From Pseudomonadota bacterium (GTDB taxonomy: Bacteria; Desulfobacterota; Desulfobulbia; Desulfobulbales; SURF-16), in assembly GCA_018816555.1 (NCBI GenBank), contig JAHIVT010000155.1, forward strand, positions 1 through 36,672: a stretch of DNA of 36,672 bases, read 5' to 3'. Position 1 is the first letter of the stretch. The number at the start of each line of letters is the position of its first letter. The position numbers were made by a program, and so were the translations under genes. The notes below the pieces were generated by a model that saw only the letters and a program-made list of their open reading frames with translations, was not told the DNA's origin and ran no database searches. Of this stretch, positions 2,445 through 23,508 are shown piece by piece.

Positions 2445-2581
2445 TTTTAGGCCGGTATTTTTTCATTAAATTAATAAAATTAAATTCATATCTATTTGTT
2501 TTATTGCAAAAAAAAACAACAGAAAATTTATCATCCAAGGAAATGCTCCATAATTTTGGCCGATTATTTGGCCGATAATGC

Positions 2582-7626: not shown

Positions 7627-8397
7627 TTAAAAACCTGGCTGATTTTCCATCGCCGGGTGGCAGCGTTTGCAGTCATTCAAGGGAAAAGCGATTTTCAGAT
7701 GGCAGACTCCGCAGAATTTTTTCTCAAGGATGTAATCCATTTCAAAATGCGGGGTGGTCTTTTTTTTGATATTAAAAATGTCTGGATGGCAGTTGCCGCA
7801 GTCCAGCAGCCGGATATGCACATCATGGGGGAAGTAAGCCGGGGGGACAAAATTCCATTCCGCCTGTAGCTCCAGCCGGTTGCGAAAATTCATATCGGAT
7901 TTTTCGCTCTCCTGAAATAAAACATAGCGGGGCTTTATCATGCCGAGGGATGCCGCCAGCACCCAGTCCACCTGATTGCCAAAAGATGTACGCGGCATAT
8001 TCTTCGTCAGTTCTGCAAATTTTTCCTGGCCTGCGGAAATTTTGCCGGAGTGACACTTGTCACAGTTGTCCCTGGTGTGGGCAAAGGCCTCCTTGCCATT
8101 GTGGCAGGCGCCGCAGTACATGCCGTTGATATTGTCCTCTTCGGTAATCGGGGTGGAATTGGCGGCAAATTCAAATTCAAGTTCAAGATGACAGACCCGG
8201 CAAGCATATTTCACGCGATGACTCCAGTGGGAGAAGAACACCGGCTTGACCTGGTTGACCTCAGAGGTACGATTGATCAGGAGGTTGCCGTATTCGTAAG
8301 GAGGAGGCAGGGGAGGAAATTTCCATTTTGCCTGCAGTATGGATGGTTGCAATAACAGGCTCAACAATAAACATATGGATAGGAGAAAACTTTTCAC
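7627..8397 (-). CDS. Hexahaem c7-type periplasmic cytochrome
   Basis: The start is GTG at 8397, preceded by AGGAGGT; upstream in-frame sequence is not needed. The 256-residue protein has a signal peptide (to about LQA/K) and six CXXCH motifs starting at residues 66, 95, 112, 200, 229 and 243, in two groups of three. The second group (FPHDVH..CGNCHPDIF..CGVCH..FPL..CKRCHP) is the triad pattern of cytochrome c7 / triheme-repeat proteins, with nearby His residues for bis-His ligation. It is probably a soluble periplasmic electron carrier between inner-membrane donors and the outer-membrane conduit encoded further right. It is divergent from the PhnD-like gene at 8561. Confidence 0.88.
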   Translation of the reverse strand: MKSFLLSICLLLSLLLQPSILQAKWKFPPLPPPYEYGNLLINRTSEVNQVKPVFFSHWSHRVKYACRVCHLELEFEFAANSTPITEEDNINGMYCGACHNGKEAFAHTRDNCDKCHSGKISAGQEKFAELTKNMPRTSFGNQVDWVLAASLGMIKPRYVLFQESEKSDMNFRNRLELQAEWNFVPPAYFPHDVHIRLLDCGNCHPDIFNIKKKTTPHFEMDYILEKKFCGVCHLKIAFPLNDCKRCHPAMENQPGF

Positions 8398-8560
8398 CGG
8401 TGACCTCCTGCATTTCAGCAAAATGTTGGTCAATTGATCCTTTAAGTTATTGTGGGAAGTGTAACTCTTCGTTATGGTAAAAAAGAAACACTCAATAAAA
8501 GATAGGTCTTGTCCAAATATCCGCATCGCGCATGCAACCATCAGCAAGCGAGGAAAGATC

Positions 8561-9499
8561 ATGCCCGGAAAATCATATCAAAATTCTATCATACTTTTTG
8601 CCCTGTGTCTTTTTTTCCTCTTTGTCACCGGCTGCGGGGAGCAGCAGGACAGTAAAACAAGCAATGTCTCAGGCAAAACTCACCCCGAGCAATTAAAAAT
8701 AGGCCTGATCACCGAACATGATATCTTCTCGCAAAAAAAGAGATACGAACCGCTTGCCGCCTATCTTTCCCGCAAAATAGAGGCAAACATTGAGCTGTCA
8801 ATTCTCTCCCGTTACGGTAACGTTATTGATAATTTTGTTTCCAACGGCCTGGATGCGGCTTTTTTCGGCAGTTTTACCGGGGCCCTGGCCATCAGGAAAC
8901 TTGCGGTGCAGCCCCTGGCACGGCCGGAATACCTTGACGGCACCTCCACCTATTACGGCATGATTTTTGTCCGCAAAGACAGCGGCATCCACAATGCCGC
9001 CGATATGCGCGGCAAAAGATTTGCCTTTGTGGATAAGGCCACCACCGCGGGCTGGCTCCTGCCCATGCATTATTTCAAGGAAAACGGCATCGAGGATTAC
9101 CAGACTTACTTCAGTGAGAACTATTTTACCGGCACCCATGAGGATGCCATTTACGATGTCCTGAACGGCAAGGCGGATATCGGTGCTGCCAAGAATACGG
9201 TTTTTTCCCGCGTGGCCCAAACCGACAGCAAGGTGGAGGAGCAACTGCAAATACTTGCAACTTCACCTGAGGTGCCGGCCAACGCCCTGGCAGTAAGAAA
9301 GGATCTTGGCGAGTCTCTCAAACTAAAGTTGAAAAATGCCCTGCTGCAGATGGATCAGGATGTTGAAGGCCGGCAGGTCCTGCATGAATTCGGCGCCAAA
9401 AGATTTATCCCTACCACGGAAAACGATTATGCACCTGTATTTGATTACGCCAATAAAATCGGCCTCGATCTGGCAACTTATGATTACAATAATGAATGA
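8561..9499 (+). CDS. PhnD-like substrate-binding lipoprotein
   Basis: The ATG at 8561 follows a GAGGAAAG ribosome-binding site. The signal ends in a lipobox (LFVTGC), so the protein is membrane-anchored in the periplasm. The 312-residue product has the phosphate/phosphonate-binding (PhnD, type 2 periplasmic-binding) pattern: KIGLITEHDIFSQKKRYEPLAAYL, a GLDAAFFGSFTGALA ligand-site segment, MRGKRFAFVDKATTAGWLLP, and a KADIGAAKN motif. No permease or ATPase genes follow. The next gene is a two-component histidine kinase, so it may act as a ligand-sensing partner of that kinase. Ligand unknown. Confidence 0.82.
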   Translation: MPGKSYQNSIILFALCLFFLFVTGCGEQQDSKTSNVSGKTHPEQLKIGLITEHDIFSQKKRYEPLAAYLSRKIEANIELSILSRYGNVIDNFVSNGLDAAFFGSFTGALAIRKLAVQPLARPEYLDGTSTYYGMIFVRKDSGIHNAADMRGKRFAFVDKATTAGWLLPMHYFKENGIEDYQTYFSENYFTGTHEDAIYDVLNGKADIGAAKNTVFSRVAQTDSKVEEQLQILATSPEVPANALAVRKDLGESLKLKLKNALLQMDQDVEGRQVLHEFGAKRFIPTTENDYAPVFDYANKIGLDLATYDYNNE

Positions 9500-9689: not shown

Positions 9690-11156
9690 ATGAAGAAGAA
9701 AGTTTTCATAGCCTTGCTGATTCTTGTTTTCTGCTTCTCCGGCGGCGGAATGTATATTGCCAGATCAATCGAAGAGGTTATCACCAATCTGGAAAATGTC
9801 ATCACCCTCCATCAGGTTGAATTTTTGAGAAAAGATCTGCAGAACAAAATCAAGGTGGTACAGACCGATCTGCTGCTCAAGGATTCTCCCCATGCCCTGC
9901 ATATAGATCCCTTTATTGCCCATGTGGAAGAGATGGAAACAGCGTCCCACGTCTGCAGTAACTGCCATCATAATGAAGAAGTGAGTCAGCGCCTAAACCA
10001 CTTTCAGCAGCAAATCGACAGTTACGTTAAAAAGTTGAGCCGGGTTTATACCATAAGGGCCAACAAAGAAAGACTGACTGAGGAAAAAAATGCCGCTTTT
10101 TCCATGGGGGAAGAGACCCTGGCCGAGGTGGAGAAAATCGTCATAACCTCATCGGAAAAAATTTCAAAAAGAATTACCCTGGCCCGCAACAGCATTGCCG
10201 AGACCGAACATCTGCTGTTCTTTCTCATCACCGCAGGCCCCTTATTGCTGATCCTGATCGCCTATTTCTTTCTCAGACATTTTACCAATTCGGTTGATGC
10301 CCTGCTCGATGCCACCAGGAAAATTCAACAGGGTGATCTGCGCTATCGGGTCCAGGAAGAATTACCTGATGAGTTTCAGGTACTTTCCAAGGCTTTTAAT
10401 GATATGGCAAGCTCGCTTAAAGATCAGTGCCAACGCATGCAACAGACCGAGAGGCTGGCCGTGGTCGGCGAACTTGCCGCCGGTCTGGCCCATGAAGTAA
10501 AAAATCCTCTGGCAGGCATCAAGGTTTCCATTGAGGTGCTGGCCAGTGAACTGACCCTGGAACAGGAAGACAGGGAAGTTTTTCTGCGGATCATTAACGA
10601 AATTTACCGCATCGAGACGCTGCTCAAAAGCCTGCTCAGCTATGCCCGTCCCCCTGAACCGGAGACTGCACCCCTTGACCTGCATGAGTTACTTGACTTA
10701 ACAATCAAATCCTCCAGCTATTCCCTGATCAACCCGGCCAATACCGCAAAAATGACCAAGGAGATCGAGATTGTCAAGGACTTCAGCCCCGAATTACCGC
10801 CAATTACCGCTGACCGTGGCCTGATACAGCAGGTATTTCTCAATCTCATGCTGAACGCCATAGATGCCATACCTGCCAAGGGTACCATCACCATTACCAC
10901 CCAAAAAGAATCCAACCACACCGTACAGATCAGCATAACCGATACCGGCAAGGGCATGAACCCCGAGAATCTCAGCAAAATCTTCAATCCATTTTTCACC
11001 ACCAAACCCAAGGGCACCGGCCTGGGGTTAGCGATCTGCAAACGGCTTATTGAACTGCATAACGGCTCCATACATGTCTCCAGTACGCCTGGAGAAGGGA
11101 CAACTTTCTACATAACCTTACCGGAAAAACAACAGATCCAGGGTATTACACAATGA
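9690..11156 (+). CDS. Sensor histidine kinase with periplasmic c-type haem motif
   Basis: The 488-residue protein has TM1 (about 5-24), a periplasmic domain, TM2 (about 174-195), HAMP, HisKA with HEVKNP (His268) and HATPase_c with the NLMLNAIDA N-box, DTGKGM and GTGLGLAICKRL. The periplasmic domain contains CSNCHH (Cys89, Cys92, His93), a covalent haem c attachment motif. A kinase with one exported haem suggests redox, O2 or NO sensing. The stop overlaps the response regulator start by 4 bp, so the two are translationally coupled. The PhnD-like lipoprotein upstream may supply a second input. Confidence 0.92.
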   Translation: MKKKVFIALLILVFCFSGGGMYIARSIEEVITNLENVITLHQVEFLRKDLQNKIKVVQTDLLLKDSPHALHIDPFIAHVEEMETASHVCSNCHHNEEVSQRLNHFQQQIDSYVKKLSRVYTIRANKERLTEEKNAAFSMGEETLAEVEKIVITSSEKISKRITLARNSIAETEHLLFFLITAGPLLLILIAYFFLRHFTNSVDALLDATRKIQQGDLRYRVQEELPDEFQVLSKAFNDMASSLKDQCQRMQQTERLAVVGELAAGLAHEVKNPLAGIKVSIEVLASELTLEQEDREVFLRIINEIYRIETLLKSLLSYARPPEPETAPLDLHELLDLTIKSSSYSLINPANTAKMTKEIEIVKDFSPELPPITADRGLIQQVFLNLMLNAIDAIPAKGTITITTQKESNHTVQISITDTGKGMNPENLSKIFNPFFTTKPKGTGLGLAICKRLIELHNGSIHVSSTPGEGTTFYITLPEKQQIQGITQ

Positions 11157-12547
11157 AAAATCGCGGCAGAATTTTCCTGATCGATGACGAGGAACTCATC
11201 ATCTCCATGCTGGCCAGGTCATTAAAAAAAGAAGGGTATGAGACCAAGATCCAGACCAACGCCGACGATGTCATCGATAAAATTGCGTCATGGCATCCGG
11301 ATCTGATCCTGCTTGATATCCATCTCGAAGAAGACAGGACCGGCCTTGATATCCTTGCCGACATCAAGAAGGAGAAACTTGATACCGAAGTGGTGATGCT
11401 GACCGCCGATGATACCGCCGAATCGGCAATCAAGGCAATGAAGCTGGGCGCTGCCGACTATCTCACCAAACCTTTCAACATCGATGAGGTGAAGATCGTC
11501 ATCGCCTCCATTCTGGAAAAGACAAAACTGCGGGAGGAACTCAATTATCTGCGCAAAACCGGGACAGCTTCACAGGTACACAGCATGGTGGGCAAATCAC
11601 CGCTCATGCAGGCAATTATAGGGAAATCGCAAAAAATCGCCGAGGCAAAGGCCCAGACCGTACTTATTACCGGTGAGTCAGGTACCGGCAAAGAGGTGCT
11701 GGCCCGTTATATCCATAACTGGCGGTATCTCCGCCAGGGAGATGAAACCGAATTCGCGCCGTATATTTCGGTAAACTGTACCGCCCTGCCGGAAAACCTT
11801 ATTGAAAGCGAGTTGTTCGGTTATGCCAAAGGTGCTTTTACCGACGCCAAGACAGACCAGAAAGGCATGTTTGAGTTGGCCGACGGCGGCACCATTCTGC
11901 TGGATGAAATCGGCGACATGCGGCACGATCTGCAGAGTAAATTTCTCCGGGTCCTGGAGGAACGGCAGGTTCGCCGGCTGGGCGGCAGGATTGATCTCCC
12001 CATTGATGTGACGGTAATTGCCACCACCAACAAGGACCTCAAGTCCGCCGTACTCAACAAGGAGTTCCGCGAGGACCTTTTCTTCCGCCTCAACACCTTT
12101 GCCCTGCACCTGCCCCCTCTGCGCGAAAGACGTGAGGACATCCCTCTGCTGGCAGAACATTTCCTGTCGCACTTCTCCCATAAATACAACAGAAACGTCA
12201 AAGGCTTTTCAGCCGAAGCACTGAACGCGCTCAGCAGTTATGACTGGCGGGGCAACATCCGCGAGCTGAAAAATGTCATCGAACGATGTGTTGTTCTGGA
12301 AACTCTGGAAATAATCAAACCCGAGAATCTGCCTGCGGAATTGACCGGAGGTATTTCTCATGCGGCAAGCCAGGAGTCAACCCATATCAACCTGCCGGAG
12401 GAAGGCATCTCCCTCGAAGATGTGGAAAAAGATCTGATCAGGCAGGCCCTGGAACGGGCTGGCGGCAACCAGACCAAGGCGGCAAAACTGCTCAATATTT
12501 CCTATGACACCCTGCGCTACCAGGTGAAAAAATACGACCTGAAATAA
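11153..12547 (+). CDS. Sigma-54-dependent response regulator (NtrC family)
   Basis: The 464-residue regulator has a receiver domain (DD at 11-12, phospho-acceptor Asp55 in LLDIHL), an AAA+ domain with Walker A GESGTGKE and the sigma-54 contact loop as GAFTDA (variant of GAFTGA), LLDEIGD as Walker B, and a Fis-type HTH (NQTKAAKLLNISYDTLRYQ). It is coupled to the haem-binding kinase by a 4-bp overlap. Its obvious candidate targets are sigma-54 promoters; a good one lies 1.1 kb downstream at 13657-13671 in front of the propeller gene of the cytochrome locus. Confidence 0.95.
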   Translation: MKNRGRIFLIDDEELIISMLARSLKKEGYETKIQTNADDVIDKIASWHPDLILLDIHLEEDRTGLDILADIKKEKLDTEVVMLTADDTAESAIKAMKLGAADYLTKPFNIDEVKIVIASILEKTKLREELNYLRKTGTASQVHSMVGKSPLMQAIIGKSQKIAEAKAQTVLITGESGTGKEVLARYIHNWRYLRQGDETEFAPYISVNCTALPENLIESELFGYAKGAFTDAKTDQKGMFELADGGTILLDEIGDMRHDLQSKFLRVLEERQVRRLGGRIDLPIDVTVIATTNKDLKSAVLNKEFREDLFFRLNTFALHLPPLRERREDIPLLAEHFLSHFSHKYNRNVKGFSAEALNALSSYDWRGNIRELKNVIERCVVLETLEIIKPENLPAELTGGISHAASQESTHINLPEEGISLEDVEKDLIRQALERAGGNQTKAAKLLNISYDTLRYQVKKYDLK

Positions 12548-12561: not shown

Positions 12562-13254
12562 TCAGGCAAATTTAACCCCGGCGCGATATGTCTGCTCGTC
12601 AACCACCTCGCTCCATATCACTACGCCTGATCTGTTGTTCAGCTCTGCCTCAAAGCCGATGATCTGCGAGATTTTCAGGGGAAAGTCCGTCAACAAGCCG
12701 ATTCCTTCCTCGCTGAGATCAAGCCCTTTCGCCTGAAAGGACATGCGTCTGGTCTCACCCTCAACGATCAGGGTCATGGAAAATGTAATGGGGTCAGTGA
12801 ATCCTCTTCTTTGGATTTCCCGTCCGCCCTTCCCAAAAACGCTGCCGGTCGAGCGGAATTCGGCATGGAAATCCTTATCCTGGTCCAGCAGCGTCCTCAC
12901 CACTTCTGTTATCTCGCAGAGACTGAAAGGTTTGGCAACAAACCGGCAGGCGCCGTTACTGGTTGCCTGCTGAAGATCTTCCGAGATAGTGGCGGAGTTG
13001 AAATAGCTGGCACTCATGATAACGACCTTGGTGTCAGGACACATGTCCTTGATGAATTTCATCAGATCCAGCCCGTTAAAATCCGGCAGATGAATATCCA
13101 GCAGGCACAGGTCATAGCGGCAGGAACTGAGCTTTTCCAGCGCCGCGGTGCCCGTATCAGCGGTTGTCACATTGAAGGATTCATGACTCAGGGCCTTTGC
13201 CAACCCAAAAAGAATAAGCTCGTTATCATCAACTATTAGTATGTTCTTGTGCAC
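12562..13254 (-). CDS. REC-PilZ response regulator (c-di-GMP effector)
   Basis: The start is GTG at 13254 with GAGGT just upstream. In the 230-residue protein, residues 1-125 form a receiver domain (DDN at 9-11, Asp53 in LLDIHLPDFNG, Lys108 in KPF). Residues about 140-230 form a PilZ domain with both c-di-GMP signatures: R145xxxR149 (REIQR) and D179xSxxG184 (DLSEEG). It is convergent with the sigma-54 regulator. The combination means phosphorylation and c-di-GMP can be integrated in one protein; there is no output enzyme or DNA-binding domain, so it probably acts by protein contact. The cognate kinase is not identified. Confidence 0.85.
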   Translation of the reverse strand: MHKNILIVDDNELILFGLAKALSHESFNVTTADTGTAALEKLSSCRYDLCLLDIHLPDFNGLDLMKFIKDMCPDTKVVIMSASYFNSATISEDLQQATSNGACRFVAKPFSLCEITEVVRTLLDQDKDFHAEFRSTGSVFGKGGREIQRRGFTDPITFSMTLIVEGETRRMSFQAKGLDLSEEGIGLLTDFPLKISQIIGFEAELNNRSGVVIWSEVVDEQTYRAGVKFA

Positions 13255-13686
13255 AATGACCTCTGCCGGGGGATATTTTTACCTGTTGCCCTCGTCGCTC
13301 AGGCAAATTATGTACCACGGGAAAGACATTTACATATAAGCATCTAAAAATTCTATCATTTAAGCTAGTTATCCTTGATCATTCCCCCTGTTGATTCCCG
13401 TTTTCACCTCGACAGAAGTGGGTAAATTGCCGCTGTTCAGCCATTTCACCGCTTTCCGTTGGGTATTATGCCATACATACTCAATTTTCTTCTCCTCTCA
13501 TTTTTTCTGCCACCCGCTTACGGACAGCGATATTAGTTAAATTCCCAAACCTCATTTCGCCAAATCCCCATCTTCACCTCTTCCTGGCAGCCCCCTCTCC
13601 GGCCCATAGCTTGTAACATATTGTTATTACATGATTTGACGAAATACTCCAAACACGGCACACCCGTTGCAATACCACAATGTGCC
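13255..13686. other. Intergenic region with sigma-54 promoter at its right end
   Basis: I see no convincing gene in these 430 bases. A roughly 42-codon minus-strand frame near 13395-13520 has no start signal and is not recognised. The right end carries the sigma-54 promoter annotated separately; the remainder may hold activator sites, but I could not identify a clear inverted repeat. Confidence 0.45.
13656..13671 (+). promoter_or_regulatory. Sigma-54 (-24/-12) promoter
   Basis: GGCAC-ACCCG-TTGCA has the invariant GG and GC exactly 12 bp apart, as in the consensus TGGCAC-N5-TTGCA. The first T is replaced by C. Expected transcription start is about 13682, only a few bases before the ATG at 13687. 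Confidence 0.7.
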
Positions 13687-14631
13687 ATGAAAACTAACCG
13701 TAAAAAATACATAGCCGGCATACTGATGGCCATCTGCCTGCTGCTGATGACCGGTAAACAGTCAATGGCACAGTTTACGGAAAGCTATCTTTACAACCTC
13801 TCCAGTTTTACCGGAGTGGTTCCCTACAGCTGGGCCACCCTCTCCTGCGACGAGTGGCAGAATGAAGTCTACGTGGTGTACCAGAATCTGGTCACGGTTT
13901 TTAATGAAAACGGCATGGAGGTCCATAGTTTCGGCGACAGCCTTGATATCGGTCATATCCTTGACGTCGCGGTTGAAGAGAACGGCGATATCCTCCTGCT
14001 GGCATATAACGACCTGAAATCTTCCGTGACCAGGAGCAATTACCGGGGAGAGCCCAAAGAAGAAATCAAACTGAAAGATCTGCCCGAGGAATTTGCAAAA
14101 ATGCACGCCAACCGCATCGCTTACCGGGATGGCAAAATCTATCTCGCCTCGGAAGCACAGATGCAAATAGTCGTCGTCGACGCAACTGGCCGTTTTGTCA
14201 AGGGATTCGATCTGATCACCATTTTCGGTCTTGAGGAAAAGGACCGGACGGATGCCGGCTTCAGCGGCTTCAACCTGGATAAGAACGGTAACATGCTGTT
14301 CACCGTGCCCGTGCTGTTCACGGCCAACATCCTGTCGCCCGACGGCGAGATCGTTTCCTTCGGCAAGCCGGGCGGCGCCCCTGGGAAATTCAACATCGTG
14401 GTCGGCATAGTGGCCGACAGCCAGGGAAATTACCTGGTGGCCGACAAATTGAAATCCGCCATCATCGTCTTTGATAAGGATCTCAATTTTATCAAGGAGT
14501 TCGGCTACAGAGGCGAGAAACCGGGCAACCTGATTGCCCCGGAGAGCCTGACCATTGACAGCGAAGACCGGCTATACGTATCCCAGGGCAGAAAAAAGGG
14601 AGTCAGTGTTTTCAAGCTCATACACGAATAG
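13687..14631 (+). CDS. Secreted NHL-repeat six-bladed propeller protein
   Basis: The ATG at 13687 gives 314 residues with a signal peptide (MKTNRKKYIAGIL..., cleavage near SMA/Q). The body consists of repeated NHL-type blades, for example ILDVAVEENGDILLLAYND, GFNLDKNGNMLFTV, VGIVADSQGNYLVADK and LTIDSEDRLYVSQGRKKGVSVF. No haem motif is present. Such propellers are binding scaffolds and recur in outer-membrane cytochrome clusters; this one opens the locus. There is no Shine-Dalgarno sequence and the predicted sigma-54 start leaves about 5 untranslated bases, so translation would be nearly leaderless unless transcription starts elsewhere. Confidence 0.85.
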   Translation: MKTNRKKYIAGILMAICLLLMTGKQSMAQFTESYLYNLSSFTGVVPYSWATLSCDEWQNEVYVVYQNLVTVFNENGMEVHSFGDSLDIGHILDVAVEENGDILLLAYNDLKSSVTRSNYRGEPKEEIKLKDLPEEFAKMHANRIAYRDGKIYLASEAQMQIVVVDATGRFVKGFDLITIFGLEEKDRTDAGFSGFNLDKNGNMLFTVPVLFTANILSPDGEIVSFGKPGGAPGKFNIVVGIVADSQGNYLVADKLKSAIIVFDKDLNFIKEFGYRGEKPGNLIAPESLTIDSEDRLYVSQGRKKGVSVFKLIHE

Positions 14632-14787
14632 GCAACCCATTTTGCCGGCAGAACGAATGCCGGTAAAGCAAATGACAAAGAGGCTTTAGTCTCACAAAGA
14701 AAAAGGAGGACCTAACAAATCAAAAGTTACTAGGGGAAAAAAGATAAAAGCTGAGCAGTATCTGTCGGTCTTCCGACAGCAAGTATC

Positions 14788-14865
14788 CTCCGAAAAAGGT
14801 AAACCCATCGTGAGGTGGGGACACAAAGTCAACAGGTCCTGGAAAGGACGGCTGGACCGCCGGAG
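14788..14865 (+). promoter_or_regulatory. GEMM-I cyclic-dinucleotide riboswitch
   Basis: The core GGTAAACCC ... GTGAGG (GNRA-like loop) ... GGGGACACAAAGTCA ... GG followed by a second stem-loop matches the GEMM-I (c-di-GMP-I) consensus GGNAAACC...GGGACGCAAAGCC. The P1 helix is CTCCG (14788-14792) with CGGAG (14861-14865). Aligning to the Vibrio Vc2 aptamer, the position equivalent to G20 is G, which favours c-di-GMP over 3',3'-cGAMP; this alignment is by eye. It lies 25 bp upstream of the Shine-Dalgarno of the OmcS-type gene. A small hairpin (CTGTCGG/CCGACAG, 14762-14779) precedes it. Confidence 0.85.
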
Positions 14866-14880
14866 CTCAAAAACCATCTT

Positions 14881-14887
14881 GGAGGAT
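14881..14887 (+). promoter_or_regulatory. Shine-Dalgarno complementary to the riboswitch P1 5' strand
   Basis: GGAGGAT contains the ribosome-binding site of the cytochrome gene and is perfectly complementary to ATCCTCC at 14785-14791, which includes four of the five bases of the P1 5' strand. P1 formation and SD sequestration are therefore mutually exclusive, which predicts translation ON with ligand. Confidence 0.7.
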
Positions 14888-14890
14888 GAA

Positions 14891-16147
14891 ATGAGAAATA
14901 CAAAGAAACTTTATATCACCGCAGCCTGTGCCGGTCTTCTTACCCTCGGATTTACCGGTTCCGCCTTTGCTTTCCATAGCGGCGGTGTCGCCGAGTGCGG
15001 CGGCTGTCACAGCATGCATTCACCCGCAGCAGGCGGAACCTTCCTGCTGGTAGGCACCGACCAGAGCTCAACCTGTCTGAGCTGTCATGAACATGCCGGT
15101 GATACGGGACCGTCAAGCTATCATATCAGTACCGCTGACGCGGATATGCCCTCTGGTGTGGCTCCTCTGCAGAGAACCCCGGGCGGCGACTTCGGCTGGC
15201 TCAAAAAAGACTATTCATTTACCGTGCGCGGCACACTCAATACAGAAGCCGGCGAGACCCATGGCCATAACATCATTGCCGTGGATAAAGGATATTCTGT
15301 TGATACGGAAAACGCCACTGCTCCGGGCGGTACCTTCCCCTCCAACCAGCTGGCCTGTAACAGCTGCCATGATCCCCATGGCAAGTACAGAAGGCTTGCC
15401 GACGGCACAATCTCAAGAACCGGCGCCCCGATCATCGGCTCCGGCTCCTACAATACCAGCGCGGCTCCCGCTGCAGGTGCGGCTGTAGGTGTTTACCGTC
15501 TGCTGGCCGGCGCAGGTTATACCAAGGACGGCGTGACCTATAACGGCGTTCCCGCCGCCAAGGTTCCATCCTCTTACAACCAGACCGAGTTAACCAACCA
15601 GGTACGCACCGCCTACGGTGTGGCAAGCGCCGGTGGTCATTCTACCTGGAGTAACTGGTGCTCCACCTGTCATCCCAACATGCACAGCTCAGGCAACATG
15701 GTGCATCCGGTTGACCAGGGCCTTGGCTCAAGCGTGGCCACCCTGTATGGTCAGTATGTGAAATCAGGCGACATGACCGGTACGGCAGCCTCGTCGTTCC
15801 TGTCACTGGCCCCGTTTGCCACAAACAGCTCAGACTATACCGCCCTGGCAGCCCTGGCCAAAAACGACAACACAGCGCTCGCCGGACCAGGCAGCTCTGA
15901 CCAGGTCATGTGTCTCTCCTGCCACCGCGCCCATGCCTCAGGTTTTGAATACATGCTGCGCTGGAACAACGAAGGCGAGTTCATTACCCAGAACGGCGTC
16001 TGGCCAGGAATCGACAATGGTGCTTCCGTCCAGTTCGCCAGAGGCCGTACCGAGGCTGAGATGCGGGCTGCCTACTATGACAGACCGGCTACCACATTTG
16101 CCACCTTCCAGAGGGTGCTCTGCAACAAGTGTCACGCTCAAGACTAA
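14891..16147 (+). CDS. omcS: OmcS-family hexahaem nanowire cytochrome
   Basis: The ATG at 14891 follows TTGGAGGAT. The 418-residue protein has a signal peptide cleaved at AFA/FHSGG, giving the same mature start as Geobacter OmcS. Six CXXCH motifs start at residues 36, 62, 156, 257, 341 and 411. Long segments match OmcS as I know it: HAGDTGPSSYHIST, TPGGDFGWLKK, SCHDPHGKYRR, LSCHRAHASGF and the C-terminal LCNKCHAQD. OmcS monomers polymerise into extracellular filaments with a continuous stacked-haem chain for electron transfer to minerals, electrodes or partner cells. The gene is a single-gene unit between a GEMM-I riboswitch and a strong terminator. OmcE/OmcT-like paralogues are the alternative names; the segment matches favour OmcS. 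Confidence 0.93.
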   Translation: MRNTKKLYITAACAGLLTLGFTGSAFAFHSGGVAECGGCHSMHSPAAGGTFLLVGTDQSSTCLSCHEHAGDTGPSSYHISTADADMPSGVAPLQRTPGGDFGWLKKDYSFTVRGTLNTEAGETHGHNIIAVDKGYSVDTENATAPGGTFPSNQLACNSCHDPHGKYRRLADGTISRTGAPIIGSGSYNTSAAPAAGAAVGVYRLLAGAGYTKDGVTYNGVPAAKVPSSYNQTELTNQVRTAYGVASAGGHSTWSNWCSTCHPNMHSSGNMVHPVDQGLGSSVATLYGQYVKSGDMTGTAASSFLSLAPFATNSSDYTALAALAKNDNTALAGPGSSDQVMCLSCHRAHASGFEYMLRWNNEGEFITQNGVWPGIDNGASVQFARGRTEAEMRAAYYDRPATTFATFQRVLCNKCHAQD

Positions 16148-16182: not shown

Positions 16183-16219
16183 AAAAAAGGGGGCCGGTGT
16201 TTCGCCGGCCCTTTTTTTC
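16183..16219 (+). terminator. Rho-independent terminator after omcS
   Basis: GGGCCGG (16191-16197) pairs with CCGGCCC (16205-16211), flanked by an A-tract and followed by seven T. It separates the nanowire gene from the downstream operon. Confidence 0.9.
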
Positions 16220-16249: not shown

Positions 16250-16340
16250 AAAGATTGTTAGAAATTAAAAAAAAATGATATAAAAAGATTCAAAGCTATT
16301 GCTCCTCATGTCCGCAGGAGAAAATGAAAAAGGTCCTAAC

Positions 16341-17786
16341 ATGTCAGGTATCACGATGAGATCTGCGCTGCAACTATCTCCTTTGCCTTGCCTGATTTCC
16401 ATTGTTTTCACTCTGCTCTTTTTTACCGGATGCCAGCCGGCCGGCCATTTTCCCTACAAGGAAGCCCTTGAGGATCAAGGTGAACTCAGCGTTTATACGC
16501 AGCCATTTCCCCAGGGAACCGAACGGCTCCACTTCAGCCTGCAGTCCCTCTCCGCTGTCAAAGACGACGGCACCATGGTGCCCATTGCCCTTGCCTTCAG
16601 CGACTTCAACGCCGTTGACATGCAGAGACAGAGGCTGTTGGGCTCCGGTATCCTTCCTCCTGGAAATTACCGGGGACTCGCTTTTGGGGTCAAGGAAGCC
16701 TTTTTGCGGGGAGAAGAGGAAGACTCCGCCCTGCTGGTTTCCGAAACAGCGGATATGGTTGATTTTCCGTTTCATATTGCCAAGAGAAAGGCCACACTTC
16801 TCCGGCTCGTCTTTAATTACTCGCAATCAGTGCGGGGAGGGTTCATTTTTGCCCCCGGTTTTGCCATCTTTGTCCCGGAGAAGCCGGTAACCGGTCTGAT
16901 CGGCTATGTGAGCAATTCCGCGTCAAACAATATCACGGTCCTTGATAAAAATGCCCTGGAGGTTGTCGGCCTGATCGCCACCGGCAAGGATCCTCAAGGA
17001 ATCGTGCTGGACCGCAGCCGCAACAGGGCCTACGCCGCCCTCTCCAAAGACGATGCCATCGCCGTCATCGATGTGAGCGGTGGAGAGGTTATTAACGAGA
17101 TCCGCCTCAGCAGCGGAGACAATCCCCGGGAACTGGCCATTACCCCGGCGGGAGATCTTCTGCTCGCCGTAAACACCGGATCCAGCACCATCAGCCTGGT
17201 GGACCCGCTGACCATGTTTGAGATCGACCGGATTGCCGTTGACAATGAACCCCGCTCCATTCTCATGGACCCAACCGGCAAAAGGGCCTTTGTCTTTAAC
17301 TCCATGTCCGGCACCATCTCGATCATTGACACTGCCCGCCGCGCCCTGGCCACCACCCTCTCGGTGGGGGAGACGCCCGAGAAAGGGGCATTCAACCGGA
17401 ATGGGAACCGGCTGTATATCATTAACGCGGTTTCGCCCTATCTCACCGTCCTCGACGTCGACAATCTCATTGTTCTGCAGCGGGTTTTTGTCGGCAGCGG
17501 CATGCGTGACATCATGGTTGACCCCCGCACGGACCTGATCTATGTGTCCAGGAAACGGGACACCGCCGTGCAGATTTACGACCCCTTTGCCCTTTTACCC
17601 GTTTCTACCATCCAGACGGGTGCCGAAACAGCATACATGACCATCGACAGTGAGGAGAACAGACTGTTTCTGGTGCATCCACAGACAAAACGAATAGGGG
17701 TATTCGGTCTGATAAGCAGAAAGAAACTGACCGAAATCGACGTGGGGGATGACCCCTATTGTCTCACCCTGATGGGCGAGAGGTAG
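16341..17786 (+). CDS. YVTN-type beta-propeller lipoprotein
   Basis: The signal peptide ends in a lipobox (FFTGC), so the mature protein is lipid-anchored. Residues up to about 190 form an unrecognised N-terminal domain. The rest is a seven-blade-like YVTN propeller with blades such as IGYVSNSASNNITVLDK, AYAALSKDDAIAVIDV, LLAVNTGSSTISLVD, AFVFNSMSGTISIIDT and LFLVHPQTKRIGVFGL. No haems. It begins the operon with the beta-barrel, which starts 6 bp after its stop. Start codon choice is uncertain: TTG 16299, ATG 16308, ATG 16341 (AAGG well spaced) and ATG 16356 are all in frame; 16341 is preferred. It is probably a surface or periplasmic scaffold of the electron conduit. Confidence 0.85.
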   Translation: MSGITMRSALQLSPLPCLISIVFTLLFFTGCQPAGHFPYKEALEDQGELSVYTQPFPQGTERLHFSLQSLSAVKDDGTMVPIALAFSDFNAVDMQRQRLLGSGILPPGNYRGLAFGVKEAFLRGEEEDSALLVSETADMVDFPFHIAKRKATLLRLVFNYSQSVRGGFIFAPGFAIFVPEKPVTGLIGYVSNSASNNITVLDKNALEVVGLIATGKDPQGIVLDRSRNRAYAALSKDDAIAVIDVSGGEVINEIRLSSGDNPRELAITPAGDLLLAVNTGSSTISLVDPLTMFEIDRIAVDNEPRSILMDPTGKRAFVFNSMSGTISIIDTARRALATTLSVGETPEKGAFNRNGNRLYIINAVSPYLTVLDVDNLIVLQRVFVGSGMRDIMVDPRTDLIYVSRKRDTAVQIYDPFALLPVSTIQTGAETAYMTIDSEENRLFLVHPQTKRIGVFGLISRKKLTEIDVGDDPYCLTLMGER

Positions 17787-17792
17787 TGGTTT

Positions 17793-20003
17793 GTGAGTGA
17801 ACGATGCAGAGCAGAGACTTTACGATATCGACGCTCCCTGGGGCTCCTGTTGTATCTTTGCTGCTGCTTTCTCGTCCCGGTACCACAATCGGCCAGGGCT
17901 GACAGCATCCGGGCTCTGCTGGAGTTTGATTACAACACCTTTGATCTGGAAAGCATGGATAAAGCCACCGGAGAAAAATCGGAAACCCAGAGTGAAACCT
18001 GGGGACAGAACTACAATCTGAATATGGACAAGACCATCTACCCCAATCTGCGCCTTAATTTCGGAGGAATTTTCCAGAAAGACGTGACCGATTCCACCAT
18101 CAACGATGTGGACCGCGAAACAACCTTGACCAATACCAGACCCTTCGCCGACCTGACCCTGAGAACTCCCCTGTACACCGCAGGGGTCGGCTACAGCAAG
18201 AGAGATGCCCAGTCTCAAACTGATGATCAGCCTTGGCAGACAAACATCAACGAGCAGTACAACACCATCCTGGGGTGGCGGCCCGAAGGGTTGCCCAGTT
18301 TCGACATGAGACTGGAAAAGGCGGATTTCTATGACAAGGACCGCCTGGAGCAGGATTCAACCCAGACCACCGCTTCTCTCATCTGCCGTTACGCCAACGA
18401 CAAGTTTGATCTCCAGTACCGGCCCTTCATGGTGGAGACGGAGGACCGGATCAACAATATTGACACCAAGACCACGCTCCACAACGGCAGACTTAATTAT
18501 TCGGATTCCTTTTTTAACAAACGCAGCTCGTTTTCCACCACCTACAATGTCTCCCGCATGGAAATAGAAACCATTGCCTCCGGCACCGGAGAGGTCAGCG
18601 CTCCTCTTTTCCCCTTATCCGGCCTGTCCGAGCTTGACGATACCCCGACCCTCGGCGCACTCACCGTCAATCCCGGCCTGATCGACGGCGACCTAGCGGC
18701 CGGCAGCGGGGTCAATATCGGCCTGCCCTCCGGGGGTGACAACCGGGCAAGAAACATTGGTCTTGCTTTTGCCACGGACACGGAAGTCAACTCCCTGCGC
18801 ATCTGGGTGAACCAGGAACTGCGGGGCAACAACAATGACATTGCCGATTCCTTCTCCTGGGATGTTTATACCAGTTCGGACAACGACAACTGGACGTTAT
18901 TGACAACGGTTCATCCTGCGCCGTTTGATGCTTTCCAGAACTATTTTGAAGTCAACTTTCCCAGCGTGACCACGCGCTATATCAAGGTAGTTGTCAAACC
19001 CCTGTCTCCAATCGTACCGAATCCGGAAAATATTGCGGACATATTTGTCACCGAGATACAGCCTTATGTTACGAAACCGGTGCAGGATGTGGAAGGCACC
19101 AACACCACAACCACCCAGCTTCTCAACATGGATCTGCGGACCAGACTGGTGCAGGACCATGAGCTGTACCATGAATTTGCCTATTTTATGGTCACGTCCG
19201 ATCCCGGTTCCGGGGAACGGTACACCCTGTCCAACGCCTTTTCCGGGTCACAACAATTTTCTCCGATCTTTTCCGGCAATTTCCGGGTTAGCAGAGAGGA
19301 CATCAAGGAAACCACGGGCGATGGCGAGGCTTACGGTTACAGCGCCTCAATGCGTGCGGACCCTCTGCCCACCCTTGAGCATACGCTCCTCTACAGCGGC
19401 CGGAGGGAGAGCATCGGCGATGAAGAGCTTGACACGGATACGGTTTTTCTGCAGAACAGAGCGGAACTATACAAGGGCATTGACACCTTTCTCCATGGAG
19501 GCTTCAGCAGAAAAACCCAGGGTACCGGCGAGCAGGATGACAGCACCATCATCAATTTCGGCGCCACCGTCATCCCCCACCAGACCCTCACCATGACCCT
19601 GAGCTATTCCGGGACCACCACGGATCAGACAGGAGGAGACCGGGCCGAGGGGACGCTGAAGGATAAAAGAATGGATCTGGGCGCTGCCTTCAGGCCGTTC
19701 CAGACGGTGTACATCTTTGCCTCCATCGGTAGAGTGGAGCAGGATGACAAAACAGATACCCTGACGAATTATGCGCTGAACTGGTCGCCCTTTCCCTACG
19801 GCACGCTGCAGATGCAGTTTTCCTACAGCGAAGACCTGCGTTCCGAAGACCAGTCAAAAATAAAAACCATCCGTCCGAGCCTGCGCTGGGAGATCGCCCC
19901 GCGCATCTCGCTGGATCTTTCCTACATGGTAACCAAGAGCGATTCGGTCCGCGAGACCACGGACCTGAAATCAATTAATGCGATCGTGAAAATGATTTAT
20001 TAA
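17793..20003 (+). CDS. Outer-membrane beta-barrel of a cytochrome conduit, with discoidin-like insert
   Basis: The 736-residue protein has a signal peptide (to ARA/D) and is made of alternating amphipathic strands such as YNLNMDKTIYPNLRLNFGG, TMTLSYSGTT and TLQMQFSYSED. It ends in ...IVKMIY, a C-terminal aromatic typical of BAM substrates. No Cys pairs or haem motifs. Residues about 290-430 interrupt the barrel with a segment resembling an F5/8-type (discoidin) domain: NIGLAFATDTEVNSLRIWV, SWDVYTSSDNDNWTLL, TRYIKVVVKP. By position next to multihaem cytochromes it is the likely porin of a porin-cytochrome complex. The start is GTG at 17793. Confidence 0.85.
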   Translation: MSERCRAETLRYRRSLGLLLYLCCCFLVPVPQSARADSIRALLEFDYNTFDLESMDKATGEKSETQSETWGQNYNLNMDKTIYPNLRLNFGGIFQKDVTDSTINDVDRETTLTNTRPFADLTLRTPLYTAGVGYSKRDAQSQTDDQPWQTNINEQYNTILGWRPEGLPSFDMRLEKADFYDKDRLEQDSTQTTASLICRYANDKFDLQYRPFMVETEDRINNIDTKTTLHNGRLNYSDSFFNKRSSFSTTYNVSRMEIETIASGTGEVSAPLFPLSGLSELDDTPTLGALTVNPGLIDGDLAAGSGVNIGLPSGGDNRARNIGLAFATDTEVNSLRIWVNQELRGNNNDIADSFSWDVYTSSDNDNWTLLTTVHPAPFDAFQNYFEVNFPSVTTRYIKVVVKPLSPIVPNPENIADIFVTEIQPYVTKPVQDVEGTNTTTTQLLNMDLRTRLVQDHELYHEFAYFMVTSDPGSGERYTLSNAFSGSQQFSPIFSGNFRVSREDIKETTGDGEAYGYSASMRADPLPTLEHTLLYSGRRESIGDEELDTDTVFLQNRAELYKGIDTFLHGGFSRKTQGTGEQDDSTIINFGATVIPHQTLTMTLSYSGTTTDQTGGDRAEGTLKDKRMDLGAAFRPFQTVYIFASIGRVEQDDKTDTLTNYALNWSPFPYGTLQMQFSYSEDLRSEDQSKIKTIRPSLRWEIAPRISLDLSYMVTKSDSVRETTDLKSINAIVKMIY

Positions 20004-20082: not shown

Positions 20083-20652
20083 GTGTGGCTTAAAAAAATT
20101 ATACTGTCCGTCATACTCGCTTTACTCACGGCATGCGCCGCTTCGCCTTTATCGACATATCATGACACGGAAATGGATTTCGGTTCCATCCAGACCGTGG
20201 CGGTGCTGCCCTTTGCCAATCTCACCGGCCACACACGGGTCGAAGAACGGGTACGGGATGTCTTTATGAATATGCTGCTTGCCACGGCAAGTCTTTATGT
20301 CATTCCTCCCGGGGAGGTGGCCCGAGGCATCTCCAGGGTTCAGCTTGTTGACAGTGCGGCCCCCTCGGCCGAGGAAGTCCAGAAGCTTGGGGTCGCGCTC
20401 TCCGCTGATGCCGTCATCTCAGGGGTGGTCAGGGAGTATGGCGAGGTCCGGTCCGGGACCGCCGCTTCCAATGTGATCTCCATCGGCCTGCAGCTTATGG
20501 AGGTGCAGACCGGCAGGGTAATATGGTCAGGTTCCACCACCAAGGGTGGAATCAACATGCAAGACCGACTCCTGGGGGGAGGCGGCCAACCGATGAATGA
20601 TATAACTGAAGAGGCGGTGCTTGATCTTATCCATCAACTTTTTAATAGCTAG
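20083..20652 (+). CDS. CsgG/LpoB-like outer-membrane lipoprotein
   Basis: The start is GTG at 20083 with GGAG 8 bp upstream. The 189-residue protein has a lipobox (LLTAC) and one TolB-N/CsgG-like fold: IQTVAVLPFANLTGHTRVEERV, LGVALSADAVISGVV, then QLMEVQTGRVIWSG. This family includes GNA1162/DUF799 and LpoB-type lipoproteins that assist envelope assembly. It overlaps the next gene by 32 bp, and that gene encodes a larger protein of the same type. It probably helps assemble or secrete conduit or filament components; that role is inferred from context. Confidence 0.75.
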   Translation: MWLKKIILSVILALLTACAASPLSTYHDTEMDFGSIQTVAVLPFANLTGHTRVEERVRDVFMNMLLATASLYVIPPGEVARGISRVQLVDSAAPSAEEVQKLGVALSADAVISGVVREYGEVRSGTAASNVISIGLQLMEVQTGRVIWSGSTTKGGINMQDRLLGGGGQPMNDITEEAVLDLIHQLFNS

Positions 20653-21742
20653 GAGCGCCACCCTTCTCGCCGTCCTTGTCCTCCTGTGCGGCTGTGGAGC
20701 TGCCATGGAAAACCAGCCGGACAAGACTGACGCGGATAAAGCCGATCATCCCCTGCTTGCCGTTTTTCCCGTCCAGAACCTGAGCGGCATTCCCGCACCG
20801 CTGCAGGAGGTCCGCGAGACCCTGATCAACCTTCTGCAGCAACAGGGATTTGCCGTACTGGATGACAAGACCCTGGAGACATTCATGACCGCCCACCGGG
20901 TGCGCAATGTGGGCGGCATTGACGGTGGTACGGCCCAGGCCCTGAAGCAGGAAACCGGGGCGGAGGCGACGCTCATCACCTCACTGGAGCTGTATGGGGA
21001 GAAGTACCCGCCCAAAATCTCCCTGACCTGCCGACTGGTCACAGCATCGGACCCGCCGCTGATCCGGTGGATCGACAACGTGGGCATGACCGGAGATGAA
21101 TCGCCGGGCCTGCTCGGCCTGGGGTTGATCGGGCAGGTCGATGCGTTGCGGGACAAAGCGCTGCAAACGCTGATGGCGTCGCTGCAGGAAAGCATGGCAG
21201 GAGAGCAGGAGATTCCGGGAACAAAAAACAAATTCCGCCCGAAACTTGCCTTTCGTTCCGATACCCTGGCGCAGGAGAAGCGAAAATATGGGATTGTTGT
21301 TCTGCCTTTTTTCAATCTCAGCGACCGCAAAAATGCCGGCGAAATCATAGTGCTCCATTTTGTCAAGGAACTGCAGAATCTGCCGAATTTCCAGGTGGTG
21401 GAACCAGGGGTTGTCTTCAAGGAATTGCTCCGTTTCAGGGTCATCATGGATGACGGTATATCCCTGCCCAACGCTGCGGCCATCTTCAGCGACCTGAACG
21501 CGGATCTTATCCTTTCCGGCAAGATTCTCGATTATCAGGATGCCCTGGGCCCATGGGGCTCTCCTTACGTCGATTTCTCCACGGTCATGTTTTTCAATAA
21601 CAGCCGCGAGATGGTCTGGGCTTCAAAAAGTTACAATAAGGGCTCGGACGGTGTCTTCTTTTTTGATGTGGGCAGGGTATCCACGGCAAACGACGTGGCC
21701 TCGCAGATGGCACGGTCCGTAGCTGAAATGATTGTTAACTAA
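20621..21742 (+). CDS. Double CsgG/TolB-N-like lipoprotein
   Basis: The start is TTG at 20621, with GAGGCGG just upstream and inside the preceding gene. A lipobox (VLLCGC) follows the signal. The 373-residue protein has two similar modules, HPLLAVFPVQNLSG... (about 42-190) and YGIVVLPFFNLSDRKN... (about 223-370). Each has the hydrophobic strand plus PFxNLS pattern of CsgG/LpoB-type proteins, so it looks like an internal duplication of the fold in the previous gene. No transmembrane segment beyond the signal. Function unknown; envelope assembly is a guess from fold and neighbours. Confidence 0.7.
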   Translation: MILSINFLIARSATLLAVLVLLCGCGAAMENQPDKTDADKADHPLLAVFPVQNLSGIPAPLQEVRETLINLLQQQGFAVLDDKTLETFMTAHRVRNVGGIDGGTAQALKQETGAEATLITSLELYGEKYPPKISLTCRLVTASDPPLIRWIDNVGMTGDESPGLLGLGLIGQVDALRDKALQTLMASLQESMAGEQEIPGTKNKFRPKLAFRSDTLAQEKRKYGIVVLPFFNLSDRKNAGEIIVLHFVKELQNLPNFQVVEPGVVFKELLRFRVIMDDGISLPNAAAIFSDLNADLILSGKILDYQDALGPWGSPYVDFSTVMFFNNSREMVWASKSYNKGSDGVFFFDVGRVSTANDVASQMARSVAEMIVN

Positions 21743-21795
21743 TTGGTAAGAGCTTGCCCGTAAATAAACTTTCAAAAAACCGCAAAAGGAATCAC

Positions 21796-23472
21796 ATGAA
21801 GCGAATTGCATTATCTATCGGCGCAGTAATCACGCTTTTCCTTGGGAACGCCTTGTGGGCGCAAGCTGCAGGGACCCTCCTGCCCATGATGGACGGCAAG
21901 GAAATCGTCGCTAAAGTCAACGATGAACCCATCACCCTGGAAGAATTCAATGAGGCCCTGAACGCTCTTCATGGCCACGGGGCCATGGACGACGTCAAGA
22001 AAACCACAAAAATCGACTACGAAGCGCCCTTGACGCGCCTCATCAATACCAGGCTCATTCTGTTGGAGGCAAAGAACATCGGCCTTGACGAAATGCCCAT
22101 TTACCAACAGCGGATTGAAGAGTTCTCCAGACAGGGCCTGGGCGCCCTGCTGCTTGAAAATCAGACCAAGGACCTCAAACCGGACCAGAAAGAGGTGGAG
22201 CGGATCTACAAAGAGGAAGTCAAAGAGTATTTCGTCCAATCCATGAAGCTGGAAAAAGAAGAGCAGGCGACAAAGCTGGCAAAGGAAATTGAGTCAGGCC
22301 AGGATTTTGATGCGGTGATCACCAAGGCGATTGCCGATGGCACAGCTACAGGAACCGTCGAGGCCCAATATTTCAAACAGACGAACATGCTGCCGCAGAT
22401 TGCCCAGGCTCTGGCGAAAATGAAGACCAACGACGTAAGCCCGGTTATACCCATCCAGGGCGGCTTCGTGGTCATGAAACTTAAAGGTATCCGCTATCCG
22501 GACGATGCCCAGGCCAAGCAACGGGTTGAGGATTCTGTGCTGCAAGGGGAGAAGGAAGCAGTCAAAAAAAATTACATCGAGGCCCTGCAGAAAAAATATG
22601 GGAAAATCGATGAGGATTTGCTGAAAAGTGTCGATTATGAGGCCAAAGAGCCAGGCCTGGAGAACATGCTGCAGGACAAACGTCCTCTGTGCACCATTGA
22701 GGGGGAAGCGCCGATTACTGTCGGTGATATTGCCGAACAGCTCAAAAAGAAATTTTTCCATGGCGTGGAGCAGGCCCTCGGCAAGGGCAAGGTGAATCAG
22801 CAGAAAGAGGATTTGCTCTACAAGATTCTGACCACCAGGGTTTTACTGAAAGAGGCCCTGCTGCAGGGCATTGACAAGACCGACGTCTTCAAAAACACCG
22901 TGGAAGAATATAAAACATCCCTGCTGTTCGGCGCCTTTGTCGAAAAGGTTGTCCTGCCGGACATCCATATTGATGAAAAGGACATCAAGCAATATTACCA
23001 GGAGAATATCGCCTCCTATTCAACCCCGCCCATGATCCGCATCCAGAGTCTGGTTTTCGACGACAAAACCAATGCTGAAAAGGTTCAGCAGAAATTGAAA
23101 ACCGGTACCGACTTTAAATGGCTTGCCGCCAATGCCGAAGGCCAACTGGACCAGAAAACCGAAGGCCTGCTGAAATTTGAGGGCAAACTGCTGCTCATGA
23201 CCACCCTGCCGGAAGATCTGCAGAAGGTGCTGGCCGGCAGCAAGGACGGAGATTTCGAAATCTACACGGATGCCAAGGGGCACTCTTATGTGCTGTCAAT
23301 CGGGGATATCATCGCTCCTGTTCCCCAGGAGCTGGCTGATGTCAGTGATGACATCAAGGAAAAGGTGTTCAAGCAGAAGTTGCAGCAATCGCTGGACGAA
23401 TGGGTCGATAAGCTCAAAAAATTCTATACCGTGGAAATTTATATCGAGAATCTCGCCGATCTCGCAAAATAA
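21796..23472 (+). CDS. SurA/PpiC-like periplasmic foldase, duplicated
   Basis: The ATG at 21796 follows AAAGGA and starts a good signal peptide (cleavage about WAQAA/G); an upstream TTG would add 14 residues without an RBS. The 558-residue protein has two halves of like order, each a SurA-N-type helical segment (EIVAKVNDEPITLEEFNEAL; PITVGDIAEQLKKKF) followed by a parvulin-like segment (QDFDAVITKAI...GGFVVMKLKGI; TDFKWLAANAEG...SYVLSIGDI). It is a peptidyl-prolyl isomerase/chaperone, probably for the beta-barrel or the cytochromes. PPIase genes recur in multihaem cytochrome clusters. Whether either parvulin-like domain is catalytic is uncertain. Confidence 0.82.
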   Translation: MKRIALSIGAVITLFLGNALWAQAAGTLLPMMDGKEIVAKVNDEPITLEEFNEALNALHGHGAMDDVKKTTKIDYEAPLTRLINTRLILLEAKNIGLDEMPIYQQRIEEFSRQGLGALLLENQTKDLKPDQKEVERIYKEEVKEYFVQSMKLEKEEQATKLAKEIESGQDFDAVITKAIADGTATGTVEAQYFKQTNMLPQIAQALAKMKTNDVSPVIPIQGGFVVMKLKGIRYPDDAQAKQRVEDSVLQGEKEAVKKNYIEALQKKYGKIDEDLLKSVDYEAKEPGLENMLQDKRPLCTIEGEAPITVGDIAEQLKKKFFHGVEQALGKGKVNQQKEDLLYKILTTRVLLKEALLQGIDKTDVFKNTVEEYKTSLLFGAFVEKVVLPDIHIDEKDIKQYYQENIASYSTPPMIRIQSLVFDDKTNAEKVQQKLKTGTDFKWLAANAEGQLDQKTEGLLKFEGKLLLMTTLPEDLQKVLAGSKDGDFEIYTDAKGHSYVLSIGDIIAPVPQELADVSDDIKEKVFKQKLQQSLDEWVDKLKKFYTVEIYIENLADLAK

Positions 23473-23508
23473 CAAGCCGACTATCCAAACGTAGCCGTGG
23501 GGTCAAAA

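Follow-up and report, generated by a model that had tools for sequence, protein, structure and literature searches.

An OmcS-type hexahaem cytochrome gene with a GEMM-I riboswitch leader and an osc-like gene block in a Desulfobulbales-like bacterium

The haems of OmcS from Geobacter sulfurreducens (GSU2504; 6ef8, 6nef) are described as having twelve axial histidine ligands, eleven from the subunit itself and one from its neighbour (PMC6584659). The role of OmcS filaments as physiological conduits is disputed (PMC11077965, PMC13194489). In Geobacter, the eight-gene block GSU2500-GSU2493, in which GSU2495 is a 26-haem protein, lies downstream of GSU2501 and has been linked to OmcS maturation and secretion (PMC12977616). 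The osc operon has been named and roles given for OscD to OscH (PMC13194489), and a YVTN propeller gene and the lipoprotein GSU2497 are reported at fitting places (PMC3495685). OmcS-like genes in Desulfobulbia have already been published (PMC10553843, PMC12545173), so a lineage other than Geobacter is unsurprising, and the present protein adds one more member to a known kind.

The window, that is, the whole stretch of 36,672 nucleotides that was analysed, is one whole contig and carries an omcS-like gene. Like G. sulfurreducens OmcS, its product has six CXXCH motifs in the same order, the conserved histidines, the predicted fold and an FHSGG start, and the gene is accompanied by a preceding riboswitch (omcST in Geobacter, PMC6456294) and an osc-like block. 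Unlike OmcS, the window protein belongs to a sister clade, occurs without omcT or a second copy, and is encoded in a host on a different phylum-level branch; its riboswitch is separated from the ATG by 25 nt, contains an anti-Shine-Dalgarno strand in P1 and has G as the base at position 20. DA_402 of Desulfurivibrio alkaliphilus resembles the window gene as an extracellular OmcS-like cytochrome of the Desulfobulbales with six motifs aligned with OmcS; compared by description, it differs in having seven motifs and in its placement within a sister clade of OmcS (PMC12545173). The oet/OmcS-like cassettes of the sulfate-reducing partners of ANME are similar in gene content, an OmcS-like gene standing beside barrel and multihaem genes, but a riboswitch is not mentioned in the available text on them (PMC10553843), in contrast to the aptamer found here. 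With c-di-GMP-I (RF01051) and the Geobacter cGAMP-type GEMM-Ib, that aptamer shares fold, pocket and downstream EET genes. Unlike the described GEMM-I switches, it has a P1 whose 5' strand can base-pair with the ribosome-binding site, and the G. metallireducens pilM switch is described as a terminator-type ON switch (PMC9262584), unlike the window leader.

Our preferred reading, to which we assign a probability of roughly 0.58 as a whole, joins an OmcS-type subunit forming a filament, osc-like export, a GEMM-I gate acting on translation in the ON direction, and a replaced cassette. Within it we infer polymerisation, electron transport, the ligand, the ON direction and the direction of exchange.

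The cytochrome, its host and the osc-like block

The gene on which the analysis is centred is the following.

14891-16147, plus strand: omcS-like gene encoding 418 aa with six CXXCH and a signal peptide that ends near residue 27

The coordinates, the CXXCH motifs at residues 36, 62, 156, 257, 341 and 411, and the AFA/FHSGG junction of the signal peptide, all claimed in an earlier note made from the sequence alone, were reproduced in translation. Comparison with PDB sequences by phmmer gave OmcS (6ef8, 6nef) at E 3.7e-126 over residues 28-418, the whole mature chain, which excludes chance as the source of the likeness; the next of the 6 matches reached only E 0.21. In a MAFFT alignment of 105 rows (the window protein, OmcS 6ef8 and 103 others), the window protein is identical to G. 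sulfurreducens OmcS at 218 of 380 aligned positions (57%). Six histidines outside the CXXCH motifs are nearly invariant in this alignment, namely, in OmcS numbering, H2 (101/101), H16 (93/101), H110 (105/105), H147 (105/105), H257 (105/105) and H335 (103/105), and the remaining five OmcS histidines are variable, being kept in 4 to 69 rows. The counterparts of the six in the window protein, H29, H43, H126, H163, H272 and H348, are all present. Together with the six CXXCH histidines they make up the twelve conserved histidines of the family, which agrees with the twelve axial histidines described for OmcS (PMC6584659); judging by this conservation, the six near-invariant residues would be the distal haem ligands. 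Of these, H43 would be the one expected to reach a haem of the adjacent subunit, which in OmcS is described as haem505 (PMC6584659).

The monomer predicted by AlphaFold2 from 56 sequences (pLDDT 86.8, pTM 0.86) had a single PDB match in Foldseek, 6ef8 (TM 0.86/0.88), and its comparison with OmcS in VIA gave Z 49.8 and rmsd 1.9 over 380 residues. In a careful tree of 34 rows hand-picked out of the 105, the window clade (12 rows, 100/98) and the OmcS clade (7 rows, 100/99) were joined at 100/97. The window clade was separate there from the Geomobilimonas luticola group (96/89) and from the OmcS genes of the same genus, which form a clade of their own (100/100); a quick tree of all 105 rows had the same outline with lower support. 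By sequence, histidine set, predicted fold and both trees, the open reading frame at 14891-16147 is a true OmcS-family hexahaem cytochrome gene. The type proposed in the earlier note is thereby borne out: the conserved histidines were not lost in the alignment, and the PDB held no better match to a non-polymerising hexahaem family. A tetrahaem OmcE type or an octahaem OmcZ type is ruled out by the six motifs and by OmcS being the sole PDB fold match.

The host is Desulfobulbales-like and not Geobacter, so the earlier attribution to another lineage was correct; its remark on base composition was also fair, GC being 0.456-0.559 in blocks of the window and 0.579 in the omcS-like gene. The draft genome (4.93 Mb, 183 contigs, 4% contamination) holds dsrA above the curated cut-off, and the omcS-like gene is its only strong OmcS homologue. 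OmcS homologues are uncommon in the class, occurring in 16 of 257 genomes at E 1e-40. A contaminant contig was considered and is ruled out by flanks that are 83-95% identical in DNA to genomes of the same genus.

The genes around the cytochrome are listed below, where 41 loci refers to the named OmcS loci with at least 8.5 kb of downstream DNA.

7627-8562, minus strand: candidate periplasmic electron carrier with six haems in two c7-type triheme domains (TIGR04257, 120 bits)
13621-14631, plus strand: NHL-type six-bladed beta-propeller protein (Pfam PF17170), homologue in 37 of 54 named OmcS loci
16184-16218, plus strand: terminator-like hairpin that follows the omcS-like gene and has a T-run on either side
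16299-17786, plus strand: YVTN beta-propeller lipoprotein-like (position of GSU2500/OscD), homologue in 33 of 41 loci
17793-20003, plus strand: large outer-membrane beta-barrel, 736 aa (position of OscE), homologue in 35 of 41 loci
20083-20652, plus strand: lipoprotein, GNA1162/LpoB/CsgG-like (position of OscF), homologue in 35 of 41 loci
20621-21742, plus strand: putative lipoprotein (position of OscG), no Pfam match, homologue in 34 of 41 loci
21754-23472, plus strand: PpiC/SurA-type peptidyl-prolyl isomerase (position of OscH; PF13145), 35 of 41 loci
23497-25488, plus strand: 26-haem cytochrome with 26 CXXCH (position of GSU2495), 29 of 41 loci
25500-26774, plus strand: 16-haem cytochrome with 16 CXXCH (position of GSU2494), 30 of 41 loci
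26779-27681, plus strand: NHL-repeat protein (position of GSU2493; PF01436)

It can be observed that the downstream block corresponds to osc in having eight genes in the same order with the 26-haem gene sixth, as matched through published descriptions of the GSU genes. The statement in the earlier note that the neighbours do not look like Geobacter was therefore wrong. Its description of the gene as a single-gene unit may hold for transcription: the hairpin at 16184-16218 is strong (-25.4 kcal/mol, z -4.5) and has a T-run, so the omcS-like gene may be monocistronic, although a generic terminator scan gave no excess (18 found against an expectation of 18.6) and reported this hairpin for the minus strand alone. 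For the locus the description fails, with the NHL gene before the cytochrome gene and eight genes of the same strand after it. The AlphaFold2 model of the barrel (pLDDT 88.6, pTM 0.62) matched many outer-membrane barrels; MtrB (6r2q_B) ranked first in Foldseek, but at TM of only 0.33/0.37, and did not rank first in VIA. The barrel also contains an inserted CBM32/discoidin-like segment at about residues 337-391 (CBM32 E 0.0027), which perhaps binds sugars. Further downstream, a fused MFS/spermidine-synthase-like protein of 1010 aa is encoded at 27821-30853 on the minus strand; copies 63-65% identical to it adjoin the OmcS genes of Nitrospirota loci L063 and L099, and further copies are found in L051, L054, L058 and L091.

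In the proposed mechanism, the gene would make a secreted OmcS-type hexahaem subunit, which by polymerising most likely forms a cytochrome filament outside the cell. The products of the eight osc-like genes would mature and export this subunit, and periplasmic multihaem cytochromes would feed electrons to the filament.

A GEMM-I leader before the omcS-like gene

The region directly before the gene contains a riboswitch that had been overlooked in the earlier note.

14784-14793, plus strand: UAUCCUCCGA, 5' strand of P1, which can pair instead with the Shine-Dalgarno region
14788-14865, plus strand: GEMM-I (c-di-GMP-I class) riboswitch aptamer (RF01051, 53.6 bits over 14788-14864, gathering 35)
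14879-14888, plus strand: UUGGAGGAUG, Shine-Dalgarno region, partner of 14784-14793

The aptamer ends 25 nt before the ATG, with no T-run in between. The host genome has 15 GEMM-I aptamers, 7 of the 15 on the minus strand of their loci, and a covariance model trained on 11 of the others, none of them before omcS (R1), detected the window aptamer at 53.4 bits. The c-di-GMP-I-GGC variant (RF03167) scored 58.2 bits, just below its cut-off of 59, with A rather than G at the A47 position. In the layout published for the cGAMP riboswitch, A14 stands directly before the base paired with G40, A41 follows, and C75 directly precedes P1' (PMC6274999). The pocket of the window aptamer, assigned from this layout, consists of G 14798, A 14825 and C 14860; this is the c-di-GMP set, so that c-di-GMP is predicted as the ligand, and the pocket bases make it the most likely one.

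Similar aptamers recur before other omcS genes. R1 gave 39 matches, the window's included, in a slightly different set of 100 loci, and a second model built from the R1 hits (R2), which thus finds its own hits again, gave 38 matches in 100 loci (1,068,535 bases). Of these 38, 34 sit just upstream of an omcS reading frame, from 90 nt inside to 400 nt upstream of the extrapolated start of the OmcS reading frame, in counts that include overlapping loci. Removal of duplicates left 104 distinct OmcS genes in which 250 or more residues were aligned; more than 200 nt of upstream DNA was present for 100 of them. An aptamer precedes 26 of the 100 (26 of 80 when second genes of tandems are left out) and none was detected before the other 74. 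Nitrospirota records account for four of the 26 (L050, L063, L086, L099), and these need care because metagenome bins may hold foreign contigs; the rest are in Desulfobacterota. The rows from Acidobacteriota, Rokubacteria, Schekmanbacteria and Myxococcota, some of which have little upstream DNA, yielded no omcS aptamer. Class-wide relatives added 13 loci from genomes outside the first set, five with strong aptamers; L179, L185 and L187 are identical to L065, L057 and L102, so fresh support comes from only 2 of 10 new loci (L178, L184). A sixth class-wide match, at 10 bits, was dismissed as noise. Further omcS copies with their own aptamers occur in L102 (RIFOXYD12_FULL_55_16), L018 and L021 (G021), G021 having two adjacent omcS genes with one aptamer each. 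No publication was found on a translational riboswitch before omcS outside Geobacter, which, with subscription papers outside the search, is weak evidence of absence; the recurrent aptamer before omcS in Desulfobacterota and Nitrospirota looks new.

Regarding the mode of action, the end of the aptamer lies 16-40 nt from the chosen start codon in 24 of the 26 omcS leaders and about 150 nt from it in two Geobacter leaders. In 20 of 26 leaders, folding with ViennaRNA gave P >= 0.95 for pairing of the ribosome site with the aptamer 5' strand. The mean freedom of this site was 0.07 over the 26 leaders and 0.49 with the aptamer enforced, when it exceeded 0.5 in only 14. Among the 24 close leaders, the 5' strand starts with CUCC in 17, or in 23 if one mismatch is allowed; none of the 14 other host aptamers starts in this way. 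When these 14 aptamers were joined to the same downstream parts, a pairing probability above 0.5 was reached in 36 of 336 chimeras, against 21 of 24 real close leaders. Covariation in the anti-Shine-Dalgarno helix was seen at one pair only, the outermost (A-U 21, C-G 3; 24/24 paired); it was reached by shuffles in 0.1%, and all three C-G rows come from one family. Taken together, a P1 5' strand that doubles as anti-Shine-Dalgarno strand suggests translational control in the models. Without ligand, UAUCCUCCGA would pair with the ribosome-binding site and translation would be OFF; with ligand, most likely c-di-GMP, it would be taken up in P1 and the ribosome-binding site would become more accessible, giving ON.

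The OFF helix is weak in several leaders, namely that of the nearest relative L050 (0.07) and those of L003 (0.35), L102 (0.16) and L033 (0.07). In the window leader, enforcing the aptamer raised Shine-Dalgarno freedom only from 0.00 to 0.07; the GGA then lies in a hairpin loop, with short helices holding the remaining bases of the site and UG of the start codon. For the window leader and its nearest relative the predicted folds are thus weak or ambiguous evidence for a switch, and with so weak a release the ON direction can be drawn only from the class.

This weak release would also fit a riboswitch acting on transcription through a terminator, or as an OFF switch, a reading we judge unlikely. 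Several other host aptamers precede terminator-like sequence and two Geobacter omcS aptamers are about 150 nt away from the start codon, but the gap of only 25 nt before the ATG here has no T-run and the same build is shared by 24 of 26 omcS leaders. As to the ligand, a switch sensing 3',3'-cGAMP, or both dinucleotides, rather than mainly c-di-GMP appears improbable too, if a little less so. In its favour, a response of the G. sulfurreducens omcST riboswitch to both has been reported (PMC6456294, citing Kellenberger 2015), and A, the position-20 base of cGAMP-type GEMM-Ib, occurs in 7 of the 26 omcS aptamers (G in 18, C in 1) and in two other host aptamers, L104 and L117. The window aptamer, in contrast, has G at this position (14798) with A and C at the other two, and no Hypr Ser/Thr was found in the GGDEF domains of 30 host loci, where L146 has Asn and L145 and L148 align poorly; position 20 is described as a selectivity factor and no hard filter (PMC9262584). 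Translational control by c-di-GMP remains the preferred account of the window leader.

Other elements of dinucleotide signalling were seen in the genome. The aptamer at L104 410-504 precedes a 400-aa secreted protein that is FNIII-like by eye. In L113, a GEMM-I aptamer (1501-1578) lies about 330 nt before a second six-haem cytochrome (1906-3036). Within the window, a GGDEF-EAL protein with a canonical cyclase motif is encoded at 4966-7443, a few genes upstream of the riboswitch-controlled gene.

Cassette and regulator flank

On the left, the cassette adjoins three regulatory genes.

9690-11156, plus strand: sensor histidine kinase with CXXCH in the sensor domain, on the genus-native side of the junction
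11153-12547, plus strand: NtrC-type response regulator with 94% identity to its counterparts in two genomes of the genus
12562-13254, minus strand: receiver-domain protein, last genus-native gene before the cassette

Identity to genomes of the same genus breaks at this junction. Between 3.8 and 13.25 kb, DNA identity of the window to genome G004 is 84-86%; to G001 it is 91% as far as 12.8 kb, where the G001 contig ends. Flank proteins of the window and G004 are 73-94% identical, and the ten cassette proteins, from the NHL gene at 13621 on, are only 29-54% identical to those of the G004 cassette. The latter has the same gene order and the same left neighbour, with tandem OmcS genes, and G005 is alike. 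The window cassette proteins are 50-67% identical to those of G033, from another family; OmcS alone is 79-80% identical to that of Nitrospirota L050, exceeding the regulators of L050 (NtrC 57%, kinase 41%). From 33556 on, DNA identity to same-genus genomes returns to 83-95%, on other contigs there. The step from 73-94% to 29-54% implies that the cassette is not the usual version of the genus, and by these comparisons it most likely arrived by replacement of one cassette by another. Such a probable exchange of whole nanowire cassettes at a fixed regulator looks new.

The CXXCH in the sensor domain is kept in 13 of 13 distinct homologues of the kinase (L050, L052, L055, L061, L066, L080, L085, L086, L088, L102, L155, L157, L160), and the kinase beside the cassette may be a haem-bearing redox sensor. 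At 31434-33325 on the minus strand, two genes match the candidate phage-defence pair PDC-M31A/B; they lie between the cassette and two tRNA genes (33606-33761), where genus-native sequence resumes.

Both the function of the cytochrome and the history of the cassette admit other explanations. The omcS-like gene occupies the slot directly before the eight-gene block that in Geobacter is held by GSU2501/OscC, and the genome has no other strong OmcS homologue; it could accordingly be a non-polymerising secreted hexahaem cytochrome, either a counterpart of GSU2501/OscC aiding assembly or a soluble or surface carrier. GSU2501 is described as not clustering with OmcS, and the genes of Geomobilimonas luticola are reported to be exclusively of the GSU2501 clade (PMC12977616). 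The window protein, however, is 57% identical to OmcS against 44% to the G. luticola gene (L095), its clade is united with OmcS at 100/97 to the exclusion of the L095 group, and the histidine matching OmcS H16 is kept; we judge such a role unlikely. With respect to history, the identity break could reflect old paralogous cassettes of which relatives have retained different ones, or a metagenome mis-join. The host genome is a draft of 183 contigs with 4% contamination, the left and right native flanks are on different contigs in G001, G002, G004 and G005, and G016 of the same family has two OmcS genes at separate places. On the other hand, a regulator block followed by a cassette of the same order in the window, G004 and G005 points to alternative cassettes at one place on the left, and the window flanks are native on both sides (83-95% in DNA); we regard this explanation as rather unlikely. 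A filament-forming subunit in a replaced cassette is the reading retained.

A wider proposal is more tentative, and we place it somewhat below even odds: that OmcS nanowires are an exchangeable cassette whose subunit is gated by a GEMM-I aptamer 16-40 nt before the start codon, with P1 as anti-Shine-Dalgarno and c-di-GMP or cGAMP setting translation in Desulfobacterota and Nitrospirota, and that one genus swaps the cassette beside a fixed haem-bearing kinase regulator while the gate is kept. If the switch works as proposed, nanowire production in two phyla would be linked to a single signal molecule that can be measured. The cassette exchange would provide a natural experiment, with near-identical regulators beside two quite different OmcS/osc cassettes in one genus. 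Moreover, in metagenomes, where hexahaem paralogues are poorly separated by sequence, the leader may help to pick out regulated nanowire genes.
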